Shown here piece after piece: positions 6,714 through 48,145 of a stretch of 64,000 nt of DNA (positions are counted from its first letter, which is position 1; every line of letters starts with the position of its first letter). The translations under genes were made by a program, and so were the position numbers. This stretch comes from Fructobacillus durionis. Its GTDB lineage: Bacteria > Bacillota > Bacilli > Lactobacillales > Lactobacillaceae. Under the pieces are notes generated by a model. That model saw nothing but the letters and a program-made list of their open reading frames with translations. It searched no databases and had not been told where the DNA came from. The stretch lies in NCBI RefSeq assembly GCF_900112405.1, contig NZ_FOLI01000002.1, positions 1-64,000 of the forward strand. Reading direction: 5' to 3'.

Positions 6714-6722
6714 TGCTACAAT
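6714..6722 (+). promoter_or_regulatory. Extended -10 promoter for mreB
   Basis: TGCTACAAT is an extended -10 element (TGn followed by TACAAT) between the small ORF and mreB. No good -35 is visible, which is common with extended -10 promoters. Confidence 0.5.
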
Positions 6723-6788
6723 ATTAGCAAGTAAAGTAAAATTAAAAATGGCCAGCTATCGGCTTGGCCCTAATTGAGAGGCAAGATT

Positions 6789-42272: not shown

Positions 42273-42288
42273 TGCTATTTATTTAGCA
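42273..42288 (+). promoter_or_regulatory. Inverted repeat upstream of bacteriocin pair 1
   Basis: TGCTATTTATTTAGCA is an inverted repeat (TGCTA-N6-TAGCA). The same 16-mer with one central change occurs in the regulator/exporter intergenic region. It is a candidate operator of the XRE-TetR regulator and lies about 17 bp upstream of the putative -35. Confidence 0.55.
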
Positions 42289-42304: not shown

Positions 42305-42332
42305 TTGTTATGCTAAATGTGTTAGCTAACGC
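42305..42332 (+). promoter_or_regulatory. Candidate promoter and GTTA box of bacteriocin pair 1
   Basis: TTGTTA, 16 bp, then TAACGC. The spacer ends in the palindrome GTTAGCTAAC (42321-42330). GTTA-N10-GTTA at 42307-42324 matches, in spacing and position, boxes in front of pair 2. The -10 is poor, which is typical of activator-dependent promoters. Confidence 0.4.
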
Positions 42333-42382: not shown

Positions 42383-42556
42383 ATGTATGAGTTAAGTTTA
42401 AACGATAAGGTATTATCAAATCATGAATTAGAGAATATTAATGGGGGCTTATTTCCAATCGTAATTGCTGGAATGGTGATTACTGGAAAGTCAGCAGCAT
42501 GGGGAGCTGGAGCTCTGGCGGCTGGAGCAGCAACAGGTTATTTGTTAAACAGATAG
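42383..42556 (+). CDS. Double-glycine bacteriocin precursor, pair 1 peptide A
   Basis: The 57-residue precursor has a 22-residue leader ending ELENINGG, the cleavage signal for C39-peptidase exporters. The 35-residue mature part is hydrophobic, starts LFPIVIAG and contains a GAATG (GxxxG) motif, ending YLLNR. This fits a class IIb (two-peptide) bacteriocin subunit. AAAGGAG lies upstream of the ATG. It is followed 9 nt later by a second double-glycine peptide. It is related to peptide A of pair 2, which has the same mature length. No named bacteriocin was recognised. Confidence 0.85.
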   Translation: MYELSLNDKVLSNHELENINGGLFPIVIAGMVITGKSAAWGAGALAAGAATGYLLNR

Positions 42557-42565
42557 GGGAATAAT

Positions 42566-42718
42566 ATGAACGTTAATAATGCAATTATGGAAAAGAAATA
42601 TTTGTTAACTGATAAAGAGTTATCTGACGTTAATGGAGGAATCGCACCCGGAATTTTGTTAGGACTCTATATGGCAGGATATACGATGGGGAAAGATTTT
42701 GCATCGCGAAAAAGGTAA
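42566..42718 (+). CDS. Double-glycine bacteriocin precursor, pair 1 peptide B
   Basis: The 50-residue precursor has a leader ending ELSDVNGG at residue 25. The mature part of 25 residues, IAPGILLGLYMAG followed by YTMGKDFASRKR, contains GYTMG (GxxxG) and a strongly basic end. This suits the partner of a two-peptide bacteriocin. AGGGGAATAAT precedes the ATG; an internal ATG at residue 8 would give an 18-residue leader. The last codons overlap the putative immunity gene, indicating coupled translation. Confidence 0.82.
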   Translation: MNVNNAIMEKKYLLTDKELSDVNGGIAPGILLGLYMAGYTMGKDFASRKR

Positions 42719-42893
42719 AAGTTTCAACTTTTTGATTGCCGTATTTATAATTTATTTGCTTGCTATTATATTGAATGATTTAAATTTTATTTCTTTGCCT
42801 AGTATTTTAGAAAAATCTTATGGTGGCTTTCTGGTGATTTATATATGTTGTATTACTATCCAAGAGTCTAATAATGTAAGCGGTAAACGGTAA
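42699..42893 (+). CDS. Putative bacteriocin immunity protein, pair 1 (TTG start)
   Basis: The 64-residue protein has two hydrophobic segments (about residues 9-27 and 40-55) flanked by charged ends, like many small immunity proteins. It overlaps the end of peptide B, with GGGGAAAG upstream of a TTG start; no ATG is available in frame. It has no cysteine-rich or enzymatic motif. Immunity is inferred only from position and topology. A comparable TTG-started membrane protein follows pair 2. Confidence 0.6.
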   Translation: MHREKGKSFNFLIAVFIIYLLAIILNDLNFISLPSILEKSYGGFLVIYICCITIQESNNVSGKR

Positions 42894-42932
42894 TTGTTAA
42901 ATATATTTTTTCAAATTCTTGGTTATTAATCT

Positions 42933-42968
42933 AAAAAAAGCTTCTCAATTTATTTGAGAAGCTTTTTT
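42933..42968. terminator. Bidirectional terminator between pair 1 and the regulator
   Basis: AAAAAAGCTTCTCAA pairs with TTGAGAAGCTTTTTT around TTTAT (perfect 15-bp stem). It serves both convergent units. Confidence 0.92.
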
Positions 42969-42976
42969 AAGAATGA

Positions 42977-43744
42977 TTAATTTTCTAATAGAATTTTAGT
43001 TGAATAATAGCTGAATTGTTTAAAAAGTAATTGAATATCTCTTAAAGATGGGGAAGTTGGATGACGCATCCATGTTTCGATAAAAGACATTAGTTGACGA
43101 GATACTAAATATATTTGAAAAGACCGATCAATTAGTAGATGAGTCAACTGTCGTTGTTGTAATTCTTTGTCAATTATTTGGTTAAAAACATTCTCGAGTA
43201 CTTCATTCCAATATGCTCGTGAAATTGCATTTTGATATAAAATCCGGATATTATCTTGTTGTTGATAAAGGACGGGGAAAATTCGGTTTTGTACTCTAGC
43301 TAAGGAATCTGACTGCTCATGAAGCGAATGATTTAATTGTATGTAAATGCTTTTCTCAATGTTTTTAATGATGTCGATTAGAACATCTTCACTGTTTAAA
43401 AAGTACAATTGTACTTCATTCTTTTTTAGGTTACTTTCCTTAGCGATATCTTGTAGAGTTTCTAAAGTATTTTGTGTACGGACTAGTGATTGTAAAAAAG
43501 CCTGTTTTATTTTTTCTTTTTTAATTTCTGAGTTTTTTAAATGATTATTTTTATTGTATACATCCAATTCATCTATATCCATGTTAAATAATGTGGCAAT
43601 TAATTTTTTATTCTCTAGACTAGGTTCACTTTTATCTTGTTCCCAGTTTGAAACCAATTGTCTCGAAACAAATATTAAATCAGCAAATTCTTGTTGTGAC
43701 AACGAGTGCTTTTTTCGTAATTCTAAAATAAAGTTTCTTTGCAT
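42977..43744 (-). CDS. XRE-TetR fusion regulator of the bacteriocin locus
   Basis: The 255-residue protein has an N-terminal XRE/Cro helix-turn-helix (about residues 1-60; SLSQQEFADLIFVSRQLVSN). After a lysine-rich linker comes a second, TetR-like DNA-binding unit (about 75-125; KQAFLQSLVRTQNTLETLQD, then IAKESNL and YFLNSEDVLIDII) and an all-helical C-terminal domain. Two DNA-binding domains in one chain are unusual. AGGAG lies 7 nt before the ATG. It is divergent from the exporter gene and very likely controls this locus; the ligand is unknown. Confidence 0.75.
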   Translation of the reverse strand: MQRNFILELRKKHSLSQQEFADLIFVSRQLVSNWEQDKSEPSLENKKLIATLFNMDIDELDVYNKNNHLKNSEIKKEKIKQAFLQSLVRTQNTLETLQDIAKESNLKKNEVQLYFLNSEDVLIDIIKNIEKSIYIQLNHSLHEQSDSLARVQNRIFPVLYQQQDNIRILYQNAISRAYWNEVLENVFNQIIDKELQQRQLTHLLIDRSFQIYLVSRQLMSFIETWMRHPTSPSLRDIQLLFKQFSYYSTKILLEN

Positions 43745-43806
43745 CACTATGCTCCTTTTAAACGGGGCTGAATCTTACATAAGCATGAGAACTACTAATT
43801 TTTTTA

Positions 43807-43854: not shown

Positions 43855-43870
43855 TGCTATTTTTTTAGCA
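43855..43870 (+). promoter_or_regulatory. Inverted repeat in the regulator/exporter intergenic region
   Basis: TGCTATTTTTTTAGCA differs from the repeat upstream of pair 1 at one central base. It lies in the -35 region of an extended -10 (TGTTATATT, 43889-43897) that could drive the exporter gene, and about 20 bp upstream of the regulator -35. A regulator bound here could control both genes. Confidence 0.55.
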
Positions 43871-43983: not shown

Positions 43984-46146
43984 GTGTTTTTTAAATATAT
44001 TTCCCAAGTGGATGAACGAGATTGTGGTGTTGCTTGTTTAGCTATGGTACTAAAATCATATAAACATATTGTATCCATTGCCCGGTTACGGGAATTAGCA
44101 AAGACTAATTTGGAGGGAACAACTGCACTCGGCATTAAACGTGCAGCCGAGAAAGAAAATTTTACCGTTCAAGCAGTTCAAGCAAACATGACATTATTTG
44201 ATGAATATAAAAAATTACCTTTGCCCTTTATCATTCACGTTCAAAAACCTGATAAAGGGCAAATTGTAGAACATTACTATGTTATTTATAAGGTTGGCCA
44301 CAACCGAATATATATTGCAGATCCTGATCCGAATGTAAAAAAAATGGCAATGTCATATGTCGAAATTTCGAAACAGTGGACAGGAGTTGCATTGTTTTTT
44401 GCTCCTAATCCAGAGTTTAGTCCAGAAAAAATGCATGATAGTTATTTGTCATCAATTTTTTCGATTATGAAAAAGTACAAAGGTTTGATTGTTAATACAG
44501 TGATAGCTGCTTTATTTGTCACTCTTGTAGGCGTTGTGGGTTCATATTTTGTCCAGTTATTAGTCGATGAATATGTGCCAAATAGTATGACAAGTACATT
44601 AACAATAGTGAGTTGTGGATTAATCATTGCATACAGTTTTCAACAAATAATGTCCTATACTGAACAATATCTTTTGATAGTTATAGGGCAACGTTTATCA
44701 ATTGATTTGATTCTTTCTTATATCAAACACCTTTTCCAACTGCCAATGAGTTTTTTTTATAATCGAAGAATTGGGGAGTTAACTTCACGTTTTAATGATG
44801 CTAATTCAGTTATTGAAGCAATAGCTTCTTCGATTCTTTCACTACTTATTGATGTGATTGTAGTTTTAATGATGGCAATTATTTTATTAAATTACAATGC
44901 ACAGCTTTTTTTAATAACAATATTATCTATTCCGATTTATTGCATAATTATTATGCTTTTTGTTAAAAAGTTTTCGCGATTAAACCATGAAGTGATGAGT
45001 GCTGGAGCTAATTTGGAAGCTTCAATTATTGAACGCTTGAAGGGAATGGAAACCGTTAAGGCTTTGGGGGCTGAACAAAAAAGCTATGGAAGCATTGATC
45101 ATGATTATGTTGTTTTTTTGACAAAATCTTTTTTGAAAGAAAAAGCTATAGCAATTCAAGAAGCAGTTAAAGGGTTAATAAAATTAATGTTGCAAGTCAT
45201 TATTTTATGGGTTGGTGCTCAACTAGTGATTAAGGGTGAGATGACGATTGGAAAATTAATGGCCTATAATGCTTTACTAAGTTATTTTACTGATCCATTA
45301 CAGTCAATCATTAATTTACAAAGTAAAATCCAAATGGCCATGGTTGCTGCTCATCGATTACAAGAAGTGTATGAGGTGCAATCTGAATTTCAATTAAATG
45401 ATGAATCTTTCACATTAAGTGCAGAAAAAATAGAAATTGAATTTAAGTCTCTTTCATTTGGATATCAATATAATCACTCAATTTTTAACCACCTTGATTT
45501 ATTAATTAAAGCCAATCAAAAAGTAGCTTTAGTTGGATCAACAGGATCTGGAAAATCGACTTTAGTAAAGTTATTAATTCGTTTTTTTGAAGTGGAAAAT
45601 GGAAGTGGGGAAATTAGGATAAATGGTCATAACATTAAACACGTTAATAAGGAATCACTTCGTTCGATTATTTCTTACGTTCCACAAGAATCGCAGTTCT
45701 TTTCTGGAAAAATTATTGATAATTTACTTTTAGGCGTAGAAAGTGAAATTGATATTAATGATGTTTTCAAAGCTTGCGAAATGGTTGAGATACGAGCTGA
45801 TATTGAGGCAATGCCAAATGGTTTTTTCACTGAACTGTCAGATACTACTACACTTTCTGGAGGGCAGAAGCAAAGGCTAGCGATAGCTCGAGTACTATTG
45901 AGAAATTCTAAAGTACTAATTTTAGATGAATCAACCAGTAACTTAGATCGACTGACAGAAAAAAAGGTTATTAGCCGATTAATGGCTATTCAAGACAAAA
46001 CTATCATTTTTGTAGCCCATCGTTTAACCATTGCTGAATACGCTGAAAGAGTCGTAATGTTAGAGAAGGGAAATGTTGTGGCAGACGGGTCGCACGGTTT
46101 ATTACTTAAAAGTAATAAACACTATCAGACGCTAGTTCAAAAATAA
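43984..46146 (+). CDS. C39-peptidase bacteriocin ABC exporter
   Basis: This 720-residue protein cleaves double-glycine leaders and exports the peptides. The N-terminal C39 peptidase has Q8 and C14 (SQVDERDCGVACL), H97 (EHYYVIYKV) and D113 (IADPDPN). A six-helix ABC membrane domain follows (about 165-430). The ATPase has Walker A GSTGSGKST (518-526), signature LSGGQ (624-628) and Walker B VLILDE (644-649). The start is GTG with CGGAGGAAAGA upstream. Family relatives are LagD, LcnC and MesD. Both flanking peptide pairs have the matching leader motif. Confidence 0.92.
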   Translation: MFFKYISQVDERDCGVACLAMVLKSYKHIVSIARLRELAKTNLEGTTALGIKRAAEKENFTVQAVQANMTLFDEYKKLPLPFIIHVQKPDKGQIVEHYYVIYKVGHNRIYIADPDPNVKKMAMSYVEISKQWTGVALFFAPNPEFSPEKMHDSYLSSIFSIMKKYKGLIVNTVIAALFVTLVGVVGSYFVQLLVDEYVPNSMTSTLTIVSCGLIIAYSFQQIMSYTEQYLLIVIGQRLSIDLILSYIKHLFQLPMSFFYNRRIGELTSRFNDANSVIEAIASSILSLLIDVIVVLMMAIILLNYNAQLFLITILSIPIYCIIIMLFVKKFSRLNHEVMSAGANLEASIIERLKGMETVKALGAEQKSYGSIDHDYVVFLTKSFLKEKAIAIQEAVKGLIKLMLQVIILWVGAQLVIKGEMTIGKLMAYNALLSYFTDPLQSIINLQSKIQMAMVAAHRLQEVYEVQSEFQLNDESFTLSAEKIEIEFKSLSFGYQYNHSIFNHLDLLIKANQKVALVGSTGSGKSTLVKLLIRFFEVENGSGEIRINGHNIKHVNKESLRSIISYVPQESQFFSGKIIDNLLLGVESEIDINDVFKACEMVEIRADIEAMPNGFFTELSDTTTLSGGQKQRLAIARVLLRNSKVLILDESTSNLDRLTEKKVISRLMAIQDKTIIFVAHRLTIAEYAERVVMLEKGNVVADGSHGLLLKSNKHYQTLVQK

Positions 46147-46159
46147 GTGAGGTGGTTTT

Positions 46160-47263
46160 TTGAACGATGAAATGAAATTTGAGAGTGCTGAGTTTTATCA
46201 TCGTCGGTTTGGAAGTTTTGCAACAAAGATAATTTGGCCAATTGTTACAGTGTTCATTATTTCAATTCTTATTTTATTTATTACTAAAAAGGAAATAACT
46301 GTTAAGTCAGTGGGTAAAATCATTCCGGGAGAAGCAATTTTGAAAATCTATTCCAATGCAGAAGGTGTGATTATTGAAAATAATTTGAGTGAAAATAAAG
46401 TGGTCCATACGGGTGAGACTTTATTGAAATTATCTAATCCATCAATGAAAATTAATTTGAAAAATAATATACAGAAACAAAAGGAAATTCAGAAACAAAA
46501 AGAGGAGTTAGAGGGTTATAAAAATAGTGTCGAATCGAATAAGAAACCCTTTTCAGTTAGTAATCATTATGGTTATGAGGAGCTATTTGCTGAATATCAA
46601 AACCATATAAATGAAGTCGATAGACAAAACCAAAATAATATTGATGAAATTAACAAAATGGATTTGAGTATCGAAGAGAGAAACAAAAAGATAGCACAAT
46701 GTCATGAATCATTTTCTCAAGAAAAGATGGGCTTGAAACTAAAAACATTGGCAGGAATTAAACAAGATATTCAAGGTATAAAAAATAAAATTATTGGTTT
46801 AAAGGGTGAGTATGAATTTTTGAATAGTAATATGGAACACTTGACGGTTAGAGCTCCAGAAGATGGTATATTGCATTTGAAAAATAGCAATTTTAAATCT
46901 AAAAGTATTTCTCTTGGTACAGAAGTTGCCGATGTTTATCCTAAAATTAACAAGAAAAATAAGTTGATAATCCAATTTTTTGTCCCTGCTAACAAAATGA
47001 ATGAATTGAAGGTAAAACAAAGTGTTCGTTTTAAAGCGAATCAAACTGGTCCGACTCCCCTTGTTGCCACTGGCAGCATTCGTAGTATTCAGGTAGCACC
47101 TACAGAGACGGAAAGTGGAAGTCTATATCAAGTACAGGCTTTGATTCAGACGGAATCAAAAGACATTTCTAAGGTGCGCTATGGTTTAGAAGGAAGGGTA
47201 TCGGTTATCACTGGTAAAATAACATGGTTTAATTATTTAAGGAATTTGATTTTTAACGATTAA
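46160..47263 (+). CDS. HlyD-family bacteriocin secretion accessory protein
   Basis: The 367-residue protein has one transmembrane helix (about residues 22-42), a biotinyl-lipoyl-like half motif (KIYSNAEGVIIENNLSENK), a long lysine/glutamine-rich coiled coil (about 95-225) and the second lipoyl half with VRAPEDGILHL. It bridges the exporter through the wall, as MesE/LcnD do. The preferred start is TTG, 6 nt after GAGGTGG; an ATG three codons later is possible. It lies 13 nt after the exporter gene. Confidence 0.88.
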   Translation: MNDEMKFESAEFYHRRFGSFATKIIWPIVTVFIISILILFITKKEITVKSVGKIIPGEAILKIYSNAEGVIIENNLSENKVVHTGETLLKLSNPSMKINLKNNIQKQKEIQKQKEELEGYKNSVESNKKPFSVSNHYGYEELFAEYQNHINEVDRQNQNNIDEINKMDLSIEERNKKIAQCHESFSQEKMGLKLKTLAGIKQDIQGIKNKIIGLKGEYEFLNSNMEHLTVRAPEDGILHLKNSNFKSKSISLGTEVADVYPKINKKNKLIIQFFVPANKMNELKVKQSVRFKANQTGPTPLVATGSIRSIQVAPTETESGSLYQVQALIQTESKDISKVRYGLEGRVSVITGKITWFNYLRNLIFND

Positions 47264-47535: not shown

Positions 47536-47604
47536 GTTACAGTTGCTAAGTTATTATCAATATACATGTATTTTTATTGTTACAGTTGTAGTGTTAGCTA
47601 ACAA
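47536..47604 (+). promoter_or_regulatory. Direct repeats and promoter of bacteriocin pair 2
   Basis: GTTACAGTTG occurs twice, at 47536-47545 and 47579-47588, 43 bp apart (about four helical turns). Each belongs to a longer box GTTACAGTTG-N4-GTTA. The second box overlaps a putative promoter TTGTTA (47577-47582), 16 bp, TAACAA, and runs into the palindrome GTTAGCTAAC (47593-47602) also found before pair 1. Such direct repeats upstream of a weak core promoter suggest an activator site. Confidence 0.55.
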
Positions 47605-47628
47605 ATTTTGAGTATAAAGGAGATTTAC

Positions 47629-47796
47629 ATGGATTCTAATGGTTTTCAAATTATGGAAGAGTACGAATTAGCAAAAGTGAATGGGGGAATATTTCCAATT
47701 GTTATTGGTGGTGTGTTAATTACAAAGGGTGCTGCAATTGGAGCAGGTTGCTTTACTGCTGGAATTGGTGCTGGTTTGTATTTGGGATTGCGTTAA
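47629..47796 (+). CDS. Double-glycine bacteriocin precursor, pair 2 peptide A
   Basis: The 55-residue precursor has a 20-residue leader ending ELAKVNGG. The mature part is 35 residues, starts IFPIVIGGVLITKG, contains a GIGAG (GxxxG) motif and ends LYLGLR. It is clearly related to peptide A of pair 1: same mature length and a shared FPIVI-G-ITxG opening. It has one cysteine, so no internal disulfide. AAAGGAG lies upstream of the ATG; an in-frame ATG seven codons earlier has no such site. Confidence 0.85.
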   Translation: MDSNGFQIMEEYELAKVNGGIFPIVIGGVLITKGAAIGAGCFTAGIGAGLYLGLR

Positions 47797-47811
47797 AAAA
47801 GGAGCCATATT

Positions 47812-47967
47812 ATGACAATTAATCTTAAAGATGAGAATTTAATCAATGTTACTGGGGGAAAAAGATATTATAAAGTTTCAGGTAAAAGTGTAGCTATGGG
47901 TGCAGGTTTATTTACAGGCGGATTTGAGCTTGGCTATAAGATTGGAAAAGCAATGCGGAGAAAATAA
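47812..47967 (+). CDS. Double-glycine bacteriocin precursor, pair 2 peptide B
   Basis: The 51-residue precursor has a short 16-residue leader (MTINLKDENLINVTGG) and a 35-residue mature part that is strongly basic: KRYYKVSGKSVAMGAGLF at the start and KIGKAMRRK at the end. Two overlapping GxxxG motifs, GFELG and GYKIG, are typical of the helix-helix contact of two-peptide bacteriocins. AAAAGGAG precedes the ATG, 15 nt after peptide A. The leader has T rather than N before GG. Confidence 0.83.
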   Translation: MTINLKDENLINVTGGKRYYKVSGKSVAMGAGLFTGGFELGYKIGKAMRRK

Positions 47968-47968
47968 T

Positions 47969-48145
47969 TTGAAGAAAACGAGAGTTGTTAATCTACAGTC
48001 AATCGTTAATTTTATTTTTGTCATTGATTTACTAGCTAGTGTTATTTATTTCATAATGGTTGTTATAGGTATTCAGAAATTAGATATTTTAGAGGTTATT
48101 TTATTACTAATAACAGGCATCTTGCTATATTTTTCGAGAAAATAA
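47969..48145 (+). CDS. Putative bacteriocin immunity protein, pair 2 (TTG start)
   Basis: The 58-residue protein, starting LKKTRVVNLQSIVNFIFVID with TTG read as Met, has two hydrophobic segments (about residues 12-32 and 37-54) and basic ends. GGAG lies 8 nt upstream, inside the end of peptide B. No in-frame ATG with a ribosome binding site exists. Position, size and topology parallel the protein behind pair 1, though the sequences are not obviously alike. Immunity is an inference. Confidence 0.6.
   Translation: MKKTRVVNLQSIVNFIFVIDLLASVIYFIMVVIGIQKLDILEVILLLITGILLYFSRK

Follow-up and report, generated by a model that had tools for sequence, protein, structure and literature searches.

Bacteriocins have been sought across Fructobacillus with BAGEL4, and among the 24 genomes scanned one was reported in a single strain only, F. 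durionis DSM 19113T, in which a pair of peptides with 59.52% and 51.67% identity to chains A and B of LS2 lies near an ABC transporter gene (PMC9934391). LS2 itself has been treated in several papers (PMC4300991, PMC13415356, PMC5471241, PMC12194870, PMC11153084, PMC5610712, PMC6998098), as has weissellicin MBF (PMC10758620, PMC5270697). For plantaricin S and its kin, a model has been described in which helices pair and the membrane is permeabilised (PMC6382864), and for enterocin C a receptor-based action on BacA (PMC12765074). The lactobin A/cerein 7B family of class IIb bacteriocins (TIGR03949) has double-glycine leaders, short glycine-rich mature parts and paired genes. The locus analyzed here shares all of these features; three of its four peptides (P1, P2, and P3) score above the family cut-off, and the fourth (P4) scores below it.

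The window, by which we mean the whole 64-kb stretch of DNA that was analyzed, is part of a contig 175,703 bases long in the genome (G000) of F. durionis, a fermented-fruit bacterium; the genome is a draft of 1,327,392 bases in 17 contigs that is stated to be 93% complete. An earlier note on this DNA had placed a two-peptide bacteriocin with an adjoining membrane protein at 42383-42893. The genes of this feature were confirmed, yet they are only one part of a larger, two-pair cluster spanning about 42.2–48.2 kb of the window. The cluster runs in the order P1, P2, two-helix protein, inverted repeat, regulator (on the opposite strand), C39-ABC exporter, accessory protein, P3, P4, and a second two-helix protein (Table 1). 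From reading the ORFs, we take the genes on one side to be tsaE, an acetyltransferase gene and an exonuclease gene, and those on the other to encode a methyltransferase and exonuclease III. In the congener G006 a bacteriocin cluster is found at the same chromosomal place, and the ruvB-like and exonuclease III-like ORFs on its two sides are those of F. durionis. All nine ORFs of the F. durionis cluster are open, and purine-rich stretches precede the starts of all six small ones. A strict double-glycine-leader pattern picked out four ATG-started ORFs in the 64 kb, every one inside the cluster; in eight order-1 Markov windows the same pattern gave 0, 0, 0, 0, 0, 2, 0, and 0 matches.

Table 1. Features of the bacteriocin cluster, with positions in the window
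Feature	Position	Strand	Details
Dyad TGCTATTTATTTAGCA, possible second operator type	42273..42288	.	Upstream of pair 1
Palindrome GTTAGCTAAC, candidate operator of pair 1	42321..42330	.	Ends 53 bases before P1 start
P1, alpha precursor of pair 1	42383..42556	+	ATG, 57 aa; 22-aa leader ending INGG, 35-aa mature part
P2, beta precursor of pair 1	42566..42718	+	ATG, 50 aa; 25-aa leader ending VNGG, 25-aa mature part
Two-helix protein, likely immunity protein of pair 1	42699..42893	+	TTG start, 64 aa; 20-base overlap with 3' end of P2
Inverted repeat, likely shared terminator	42925..42977	.	Converging genes either side; arms 24 nt, 88% complementary, 5 nt apart
XRE+TetR-like regulator	42977..43747	-	XRE helix-turn-helix 7-61; TetR-like part about 71-250
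Dyad TGCTATTTTTTTAGCA	43855..43870	.	Between regulator and exporter starts
Peptidase C39/ABC exporter	43984..46146	+	TIGR01193 904.7 bits, cut-off 523.85
HlyD-like secretion accessory protein	46160..47263	+	TIGR01000 288.8 bits, cut-off 258.85
Palindrome GTTAGCTAAC, candidate operator of pair 2	47593..47602	.	Ends 27 bases before P3 start
P3, alpha precursor of pair 2	47629..47796	+	55 aa
P4, beta precursor of pair 2	47812..47967	+	51 aa; assigned by position and beta alignment
Two-helix protein, likely immunity protein of pair 2	47969..48145	+	TTG start preceded by GGAG; assigned by position and topology

Pair 1 had been described as two adjacent double-glycine precursors with leaders ending INGG and VNGG and mature parts of 35 and 25 residues, and both coordinates and translations bore this out. 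Nine bases separate the P1 stop from the P2 start, and the bases upstream of the two genes read AAAAAGGAGTGACACTTA and ATAGGGGAATAATA, respectively. A search against class IIb family models, which the earlier note had proposed as a check, placed both peptides over the curated TIGR03949 cut-off of 21.5 (P1 36.5 bits, E = 3.1e-9; P2 32.6 bits, E = 5e-8). Pfam Bacteriocin_IIc also matched P1 (20) and P3 (24.2), both under its own cut-off of 27.1. No solved structure resembled a profile of P1 and P3 at E 1, and the lone solved-structure match of P2, a capsid protein (E = 0.65), was taken as chance. The GxxxG motifs that had been offered as a sign of class IIb are present in the two mature parts, as GAATG in P1 and GYTMG in P2, but they do not discriminate against shuffled sequence: at least one GxxxG occurred in 60, 38, 91, and 73% of the shuffled mature parts of P1, P2, P3, and P4, respectively. 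Because so many shuffles of P1 and P2 also contain the motif, GxxxG is near chance level and on its own is weak evidence for class IIb.

The stretch 47629-48145 is a second alpha-beta-immunity set, paralogous to pair 1, and the genes of its two peptides likewise lie close together. P3 gave 27.5 bits against TIGR03949, above the cut-off, when scanned as a 62-aa frame from the TTG at 47608, and P4 gave 18.7 bits, below it. The alphas P1 and P3 are 48% identical (E = 4e-14); the likeness between the betas P2 and P4 has an E of 0.003, their mature parts being 25 and 35 residues long with 8 of 23 aligned residues in common. A C-terminal GYxxGK stretch is common to the betas.

The TTG-started ORF seen to overlap the end of P2 was confirmed at 42699-42893, and its start is preceded by GATGGGGAAAGATTT. 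The two-helix membrane topology proposed for it shows at a lenient hydropathy setting, with a strong segment at residues 9-25 (2.89) and a weaker second one at 36-52 (1.53); a stricter setting retained the first segment only. At the lenient threshold a small two-helix ORF directly follows the pair in eight of the nine pairs examined, the exception being one of two tandem copies in genome G114. The pair-1 protein is identical at 21/56 positions to the product of the ORF that follows an alpha-beta pair in G711 (shuffle z 7.2) and at 18/60 to its counterpart in G289 (z 4.6), its likeness to the G114 counterpart is doubtful (z 2.4), and the pair-2 protein shows weak sequence similarity to the other candidates (z up to 2.3). 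No Pfam model matched the immunity candidate of either pair, and no NCBIfam model matched that of pair 1. In the six loci of family f4 that were read (6 of the 34 genomes of the order that match the alpha profile, two of the six loci being almost the same in sequence), five have the two-helix ORF between the alpha and beta genes and one has it after beta.

The exporter contains the catalytic stretches DCG, EHYYV, and ADPDP, all intact. It is the sole C39 match in the draft G000 genome, in which three bacteriocin pairs are present. Among solved structures, it is best matched by ComA and an ABC-type bacteriocin transporter. Close relatives of the exporter (E 1e-120) were found in 5 of 13 genomes of the genus, G000 included, and the peptides encoded there differ. 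The peptide pair that accompanies the exporter relative in G003 (L018:5060-5445) is of quite another sort and divergently placed, and one of its members gave a weak lactococcin G/enterocin 1071-type match, under the cut-off. In G002 (L021:6353-7268) five consecutive short double-glycine ORFs stand near the exporter relative.

In the regulator, the N-terminal part matched HTH_3 (E = 1.3e-12), with CylR2 among its nearest solved structures, and residues 71-154 matched the BetI model with an E of 1.4e-5 and 24.9 bits, far under that model's cut-off of 201.3. For a structural model of moderate confidence built from 2 sequences (mean pLDDT 70.7), most of the rows listed in Foldseek and VIA-align were of the TetR type; the best Foldseek row had an E of 0.012 and a TM of about 0.3, with none at E 0.001, and the best VIA-align row had a Z of 10.9 (rmsd 3.8, 104 aligned). 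All 13 genomes of the genus match the regulator somewhere, mostly in the helix-turn-helix part, and a full-length relative was found in G000 and G006 only (31% identical), in both within the cluster of the exporter. Across the family, relatives at E 1e-20 occurred in 26 of 359 genomes, and one stands near double-glycine ORFs in G292 (within about 1 kb) and in G027 (about 2 kb). Short ORFs of another kind, in which a double-glycine-type leader runs into an XRE-like part that we read as an XRE-type helix-turn-helix, were observed in G279 (L029:700-963), G027 (L030:1152-1415 and L048:1072-1332), and G292 (L036:1113-1388). They sit upstream of bacteriocin-like peptides, and each would be a regulator with the look of an exporter substrate.

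Two copies of the palindrome GTTAGCTAAC stand in the window, where 0.04 would be expected, and the rest of the 1.33-Mb genome has none. G006 has a single site, 48 bases before the first short peptide ORF of its bacteriocin cluster, whose peptides are not alpha or beta relatives. Since GTTAGCTAAC was first picked from the window region, G006 is the only independent test of the motif; the chance of a site in a given 300 bases was estimated at roughly 3 in 10,000 (about 1.4 sites per genome). The 11 other genomes of the genus hold 15 sites in total, 0 to 3 each, as bare counts irrespective of what neighbors the sites. None is found in the three other exporter loci of the genus that were read (L018, L019, and L021), and the reversed pattern has 3 occurrences in G000 and 7 in G006. 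This distribution, together with the restriction of the full-length regulator to G000 and G006, makes GTTAGCTAAC a likely operator of the XRE+TetR-like regulator, as predicted from sequence, and the placing of the two sites so shortly before the start codons of P1 and P3 (Table 1) suits repression. The dyad TGCTAN6TAGCA was also considered as an operator. It occurs 3 times in the 64 kb (at 42273, 43855, and 6714; 0.04 expected) and was set aside as less specific than GTTAGCTAAC, its third site preceding a distant gene and the G006 cluster containing none. That third dyad, at 6714-6729, lies just ahead of an ORF at 6774 that we take to be mreB-like.

Relatives of the peptides were found in other lactic acid bacteria. 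The mature part of P1 is closest to the alpha peptide of G289 (26/34 identical, shuffle z 15.0) and that of P2 to the adjacent beta peptide of the same genome (12/24 identical, z 10.6), these being the best values reached by pair 1 against alpha-beta pairs elsewhere. P3 has three nearest relatives of much the same closeness, in G206, G222, and G289 (z 10.6 to 11.0), and P4 is closest to G027 (z 6.7). At E 0.01 a profile of P1 and P3 matched 14 of 397 genomes of the family; a seven-row alpha profile matched 26 and a beta profile 33 of the 397, and many of the weak matches extend over the leader only. Adjacent alpha and beta peptides, both below E 1e-15, were present in seven of the 397 genomes, belonging to four genera (G000, G289, G114, G027, G064, G206, and G222), and six of these seven, all except G064, had supplied alpha or beta profile rows. 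Within the genus, the two-row profile found no alpha match in the 12 other genomes at E 0.01, and the seven-row profile gave a single weak match, in G002 (E = 0.006). Across the order, the alpha profile at E 0.001 matched 34 of 395 genomes, 25 of them in genus g43 of family f4. The pairs in G289, G114, G027, G064, G206, and G222 and in family f4 consist of the same peptide types as those of the window, with a two-helix ORF alongside. All 8 rows of the beta alignment keep both glycines of GYxxG; of the two glycines in the GAATG of P1, just the second is invariant among the aligned alphas. In G114 (L118:8284-9306) the alpha-beta pair is tandemly duplicated, with identical alpha precursors and diverging betas.

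The LS2-like pair (PMC9934391) and the window's pairs almost surely come from one strain, and both are of the two-peptide kind. A third double-glycine pair, of a type unlike the window's two, was observed in the G000 genome, at 22.7–23.1 kb of contig C11 (L179:6677-7110, minus strand), with Cys-containing mature parts of 60 and 44 aa. In a genome-wide TIGR03949 search it fell below the cut-off, and it lies above that of Pfam Bacteriocin_IIc. No C39 exporter accompanies this pair; about 4.4 kb away stands a gene for an ABC ATPase. For alignments of up to 89 columns, an identity of 59.52% can be only 25/42 or 50/84, and one of 51.67% only 31/60. These lengths fit the 44- and 60-aa parts of the C11 pair, to which the window's peptides, with mature parts of 25 to 35 residues and precursors of 50 to 57, compare as a poorer fit; therefore the reported pair is very probably that of C11, and the idea that the report concerned the window's own pair was dropped. 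It follows that the window's pairs appear to be unreported, and the values given in PMC9934391 suggest that the BAGEL4 scan had picked up another of that strain's pairs. Among the matches listed in a literature search on bacteriocins of Fructobacillus and F. durionis, with most subscription journals outside its coverage, the window's pairs were likewise unreported, and a text search with peptide strings of P1 to P4 and their relatives returned no paper containing any. The novelty claimed for the bacteriocin stands as regards the sequences, and the kind is one already known. The published mass of LS2 (4115.1 Da) matched none of the double-glycine ORFs of the collected loci, and tblastn of the C11 peptides against plasmids returned nothing.

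Of the plasmid-borne systems, the weissellicin MBF locus on pWcMBF8-1 of Weissella confusa has an exporter 60% identical, over its full length, to that of the window, the same exporter-accessory order and several short double-glycine peptides nearby, but it differs from the chromosomal cluster in its plasmid location. pWcMBF8-1 was absent from the plasmid tblastn matches of P1 and P3 (E 1) and of P2 and P4 (E 10). P1 had no plasmid match, P3 had one irrelevant match, and the alpha peptide of a relative had none. Three Streptococcus suis plasmids (NZ_CP029399, NZ_KX785328, and NZ_MT180124) encode peptides annotated as lactobin A/cerein 7B that matched P2 (51.4% over 37 aa, E = 1e-3) or P4 (35.4%, E = 8e-3). 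Two of these three plasmid stretches also encode a response regulator and a GHKL-domain protein, whereas neither was seen in the window locus. In S. suis plasmid pSH0918 (L116), which also has lactobin A/cerein 7B peptides, an annotated optrA lies between IS1216 copies.

We read P1 and P2 as class IIb because of the family models that they match, the conservation of their mature parts and the two-helix ORF after eight of nine pairs. The original proposal of such a bacteriocin beside an immunity-type neighbor is supported by these findings and by the exporter and accessory models. It is very likely, in our assessment of the sequences, that P1 and P2 form a class IIb bacteriocin with its immunity protein, that the exporter at 43984-46146 is common to the second set, and that the genes are repressed via GTTAGCTAAC. 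From its family and locus, the C39 domain of the exporter would cut the leaders of P1 and P2 after the double glycine, and the exporter, working with the accessory protein, would secrete both mature peptides. By analogy with characterized class IIb bacteriocins, each mature peptide would adopt a helical fold, and the two helices, probably with a receptor as docking site, would pair within the membrane of a related bacterium and permeabilize it. The 64-aa two-helix protein would protect the producer, the pair-2 set (47629-48145) would use the same exporter, and the XRE+TetR-like protein would most likely repress both pairs through GTTAGCTAAC, judging from where the motif occurs.

The two sets may not be separate in their action, since either alpha could pair with either beta, giving up to four killing specificities. 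The 48% identity of P1 and P3, the GYxxGK stretch of the betas, and the exporter and probable operator common to both sets would all favor mixing, and some mixed plantaricin S/muricidin pairs are active (PMC6382864). Against this stand the unequal lengths of the P2 and P4 mature parts, with just 8 of 23 aligned residues in common, and the separate membrane protein of each set, and we regard mixing as rather unlikely. The fuller proposition that three pairs (the two of the cluster and the LS2-like one of C11) leave through the single C39 exporter, with the two cluster pairs under an unusual one-component XRE+TetR-like repressor reading GTTAGCTAAC and their four peptides mixable into more than two specificities, we hold to be a little less likely still.

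That P1 and P2 (and P3 and P4) are instead independent one-peptide bacteriocins of a class IId or Blp-like pool, their gene order being incidental, is improbable. Related clusters elsewhere do hold many different double-glycine peptides side by side, and the likeness of P1 to P3 (E = 4e-14) far exceeds that of P2 to P4; however, alpha and beta travel as adjacent genes beside a small membrane protein. Slightly more improbable again is a silent or decayed remnant. Bacteriocin genes in a genome do not always give activity (PMC6036575), but here the nine ORFs are open, the six small ones are preceded by purine-rich stretches and the exporter stretches are intact. Pheromone precursors likewise carry double-glycine leaders and use C39 exporters, but a role for the peptides as secreted signals, not killers, is very improbable indeed, as no histidine kinase or response regulator was found among the nine cluster proteins scanned (Pfam, NCBIfam), the sole regulator is a one-component DNA-binding protein, and the peptides match bacteriocin models and adjoin small membrane proteins.

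The preferred reading of the cluster as class IIb is thus well supported. It is ordinary in kind, and its control system and the mixing of partners are the parts of most promise. With the cluster, the genus would gain two new two-peptide bacteriocins and their likely immunity proteins, where the BAGEL4 scan of 24 genomes had reported a bacteriocin in a single strain (PMC9934391). The candidate operator and its XRE+TetR-like regulator offer a directly testable mode of control in a cluster where neither a kinase nor a response regulator was seen, and, as paralogs with a single exporter between them, the two pairs lend themselves to testing how specific class IIb partners are for each other.
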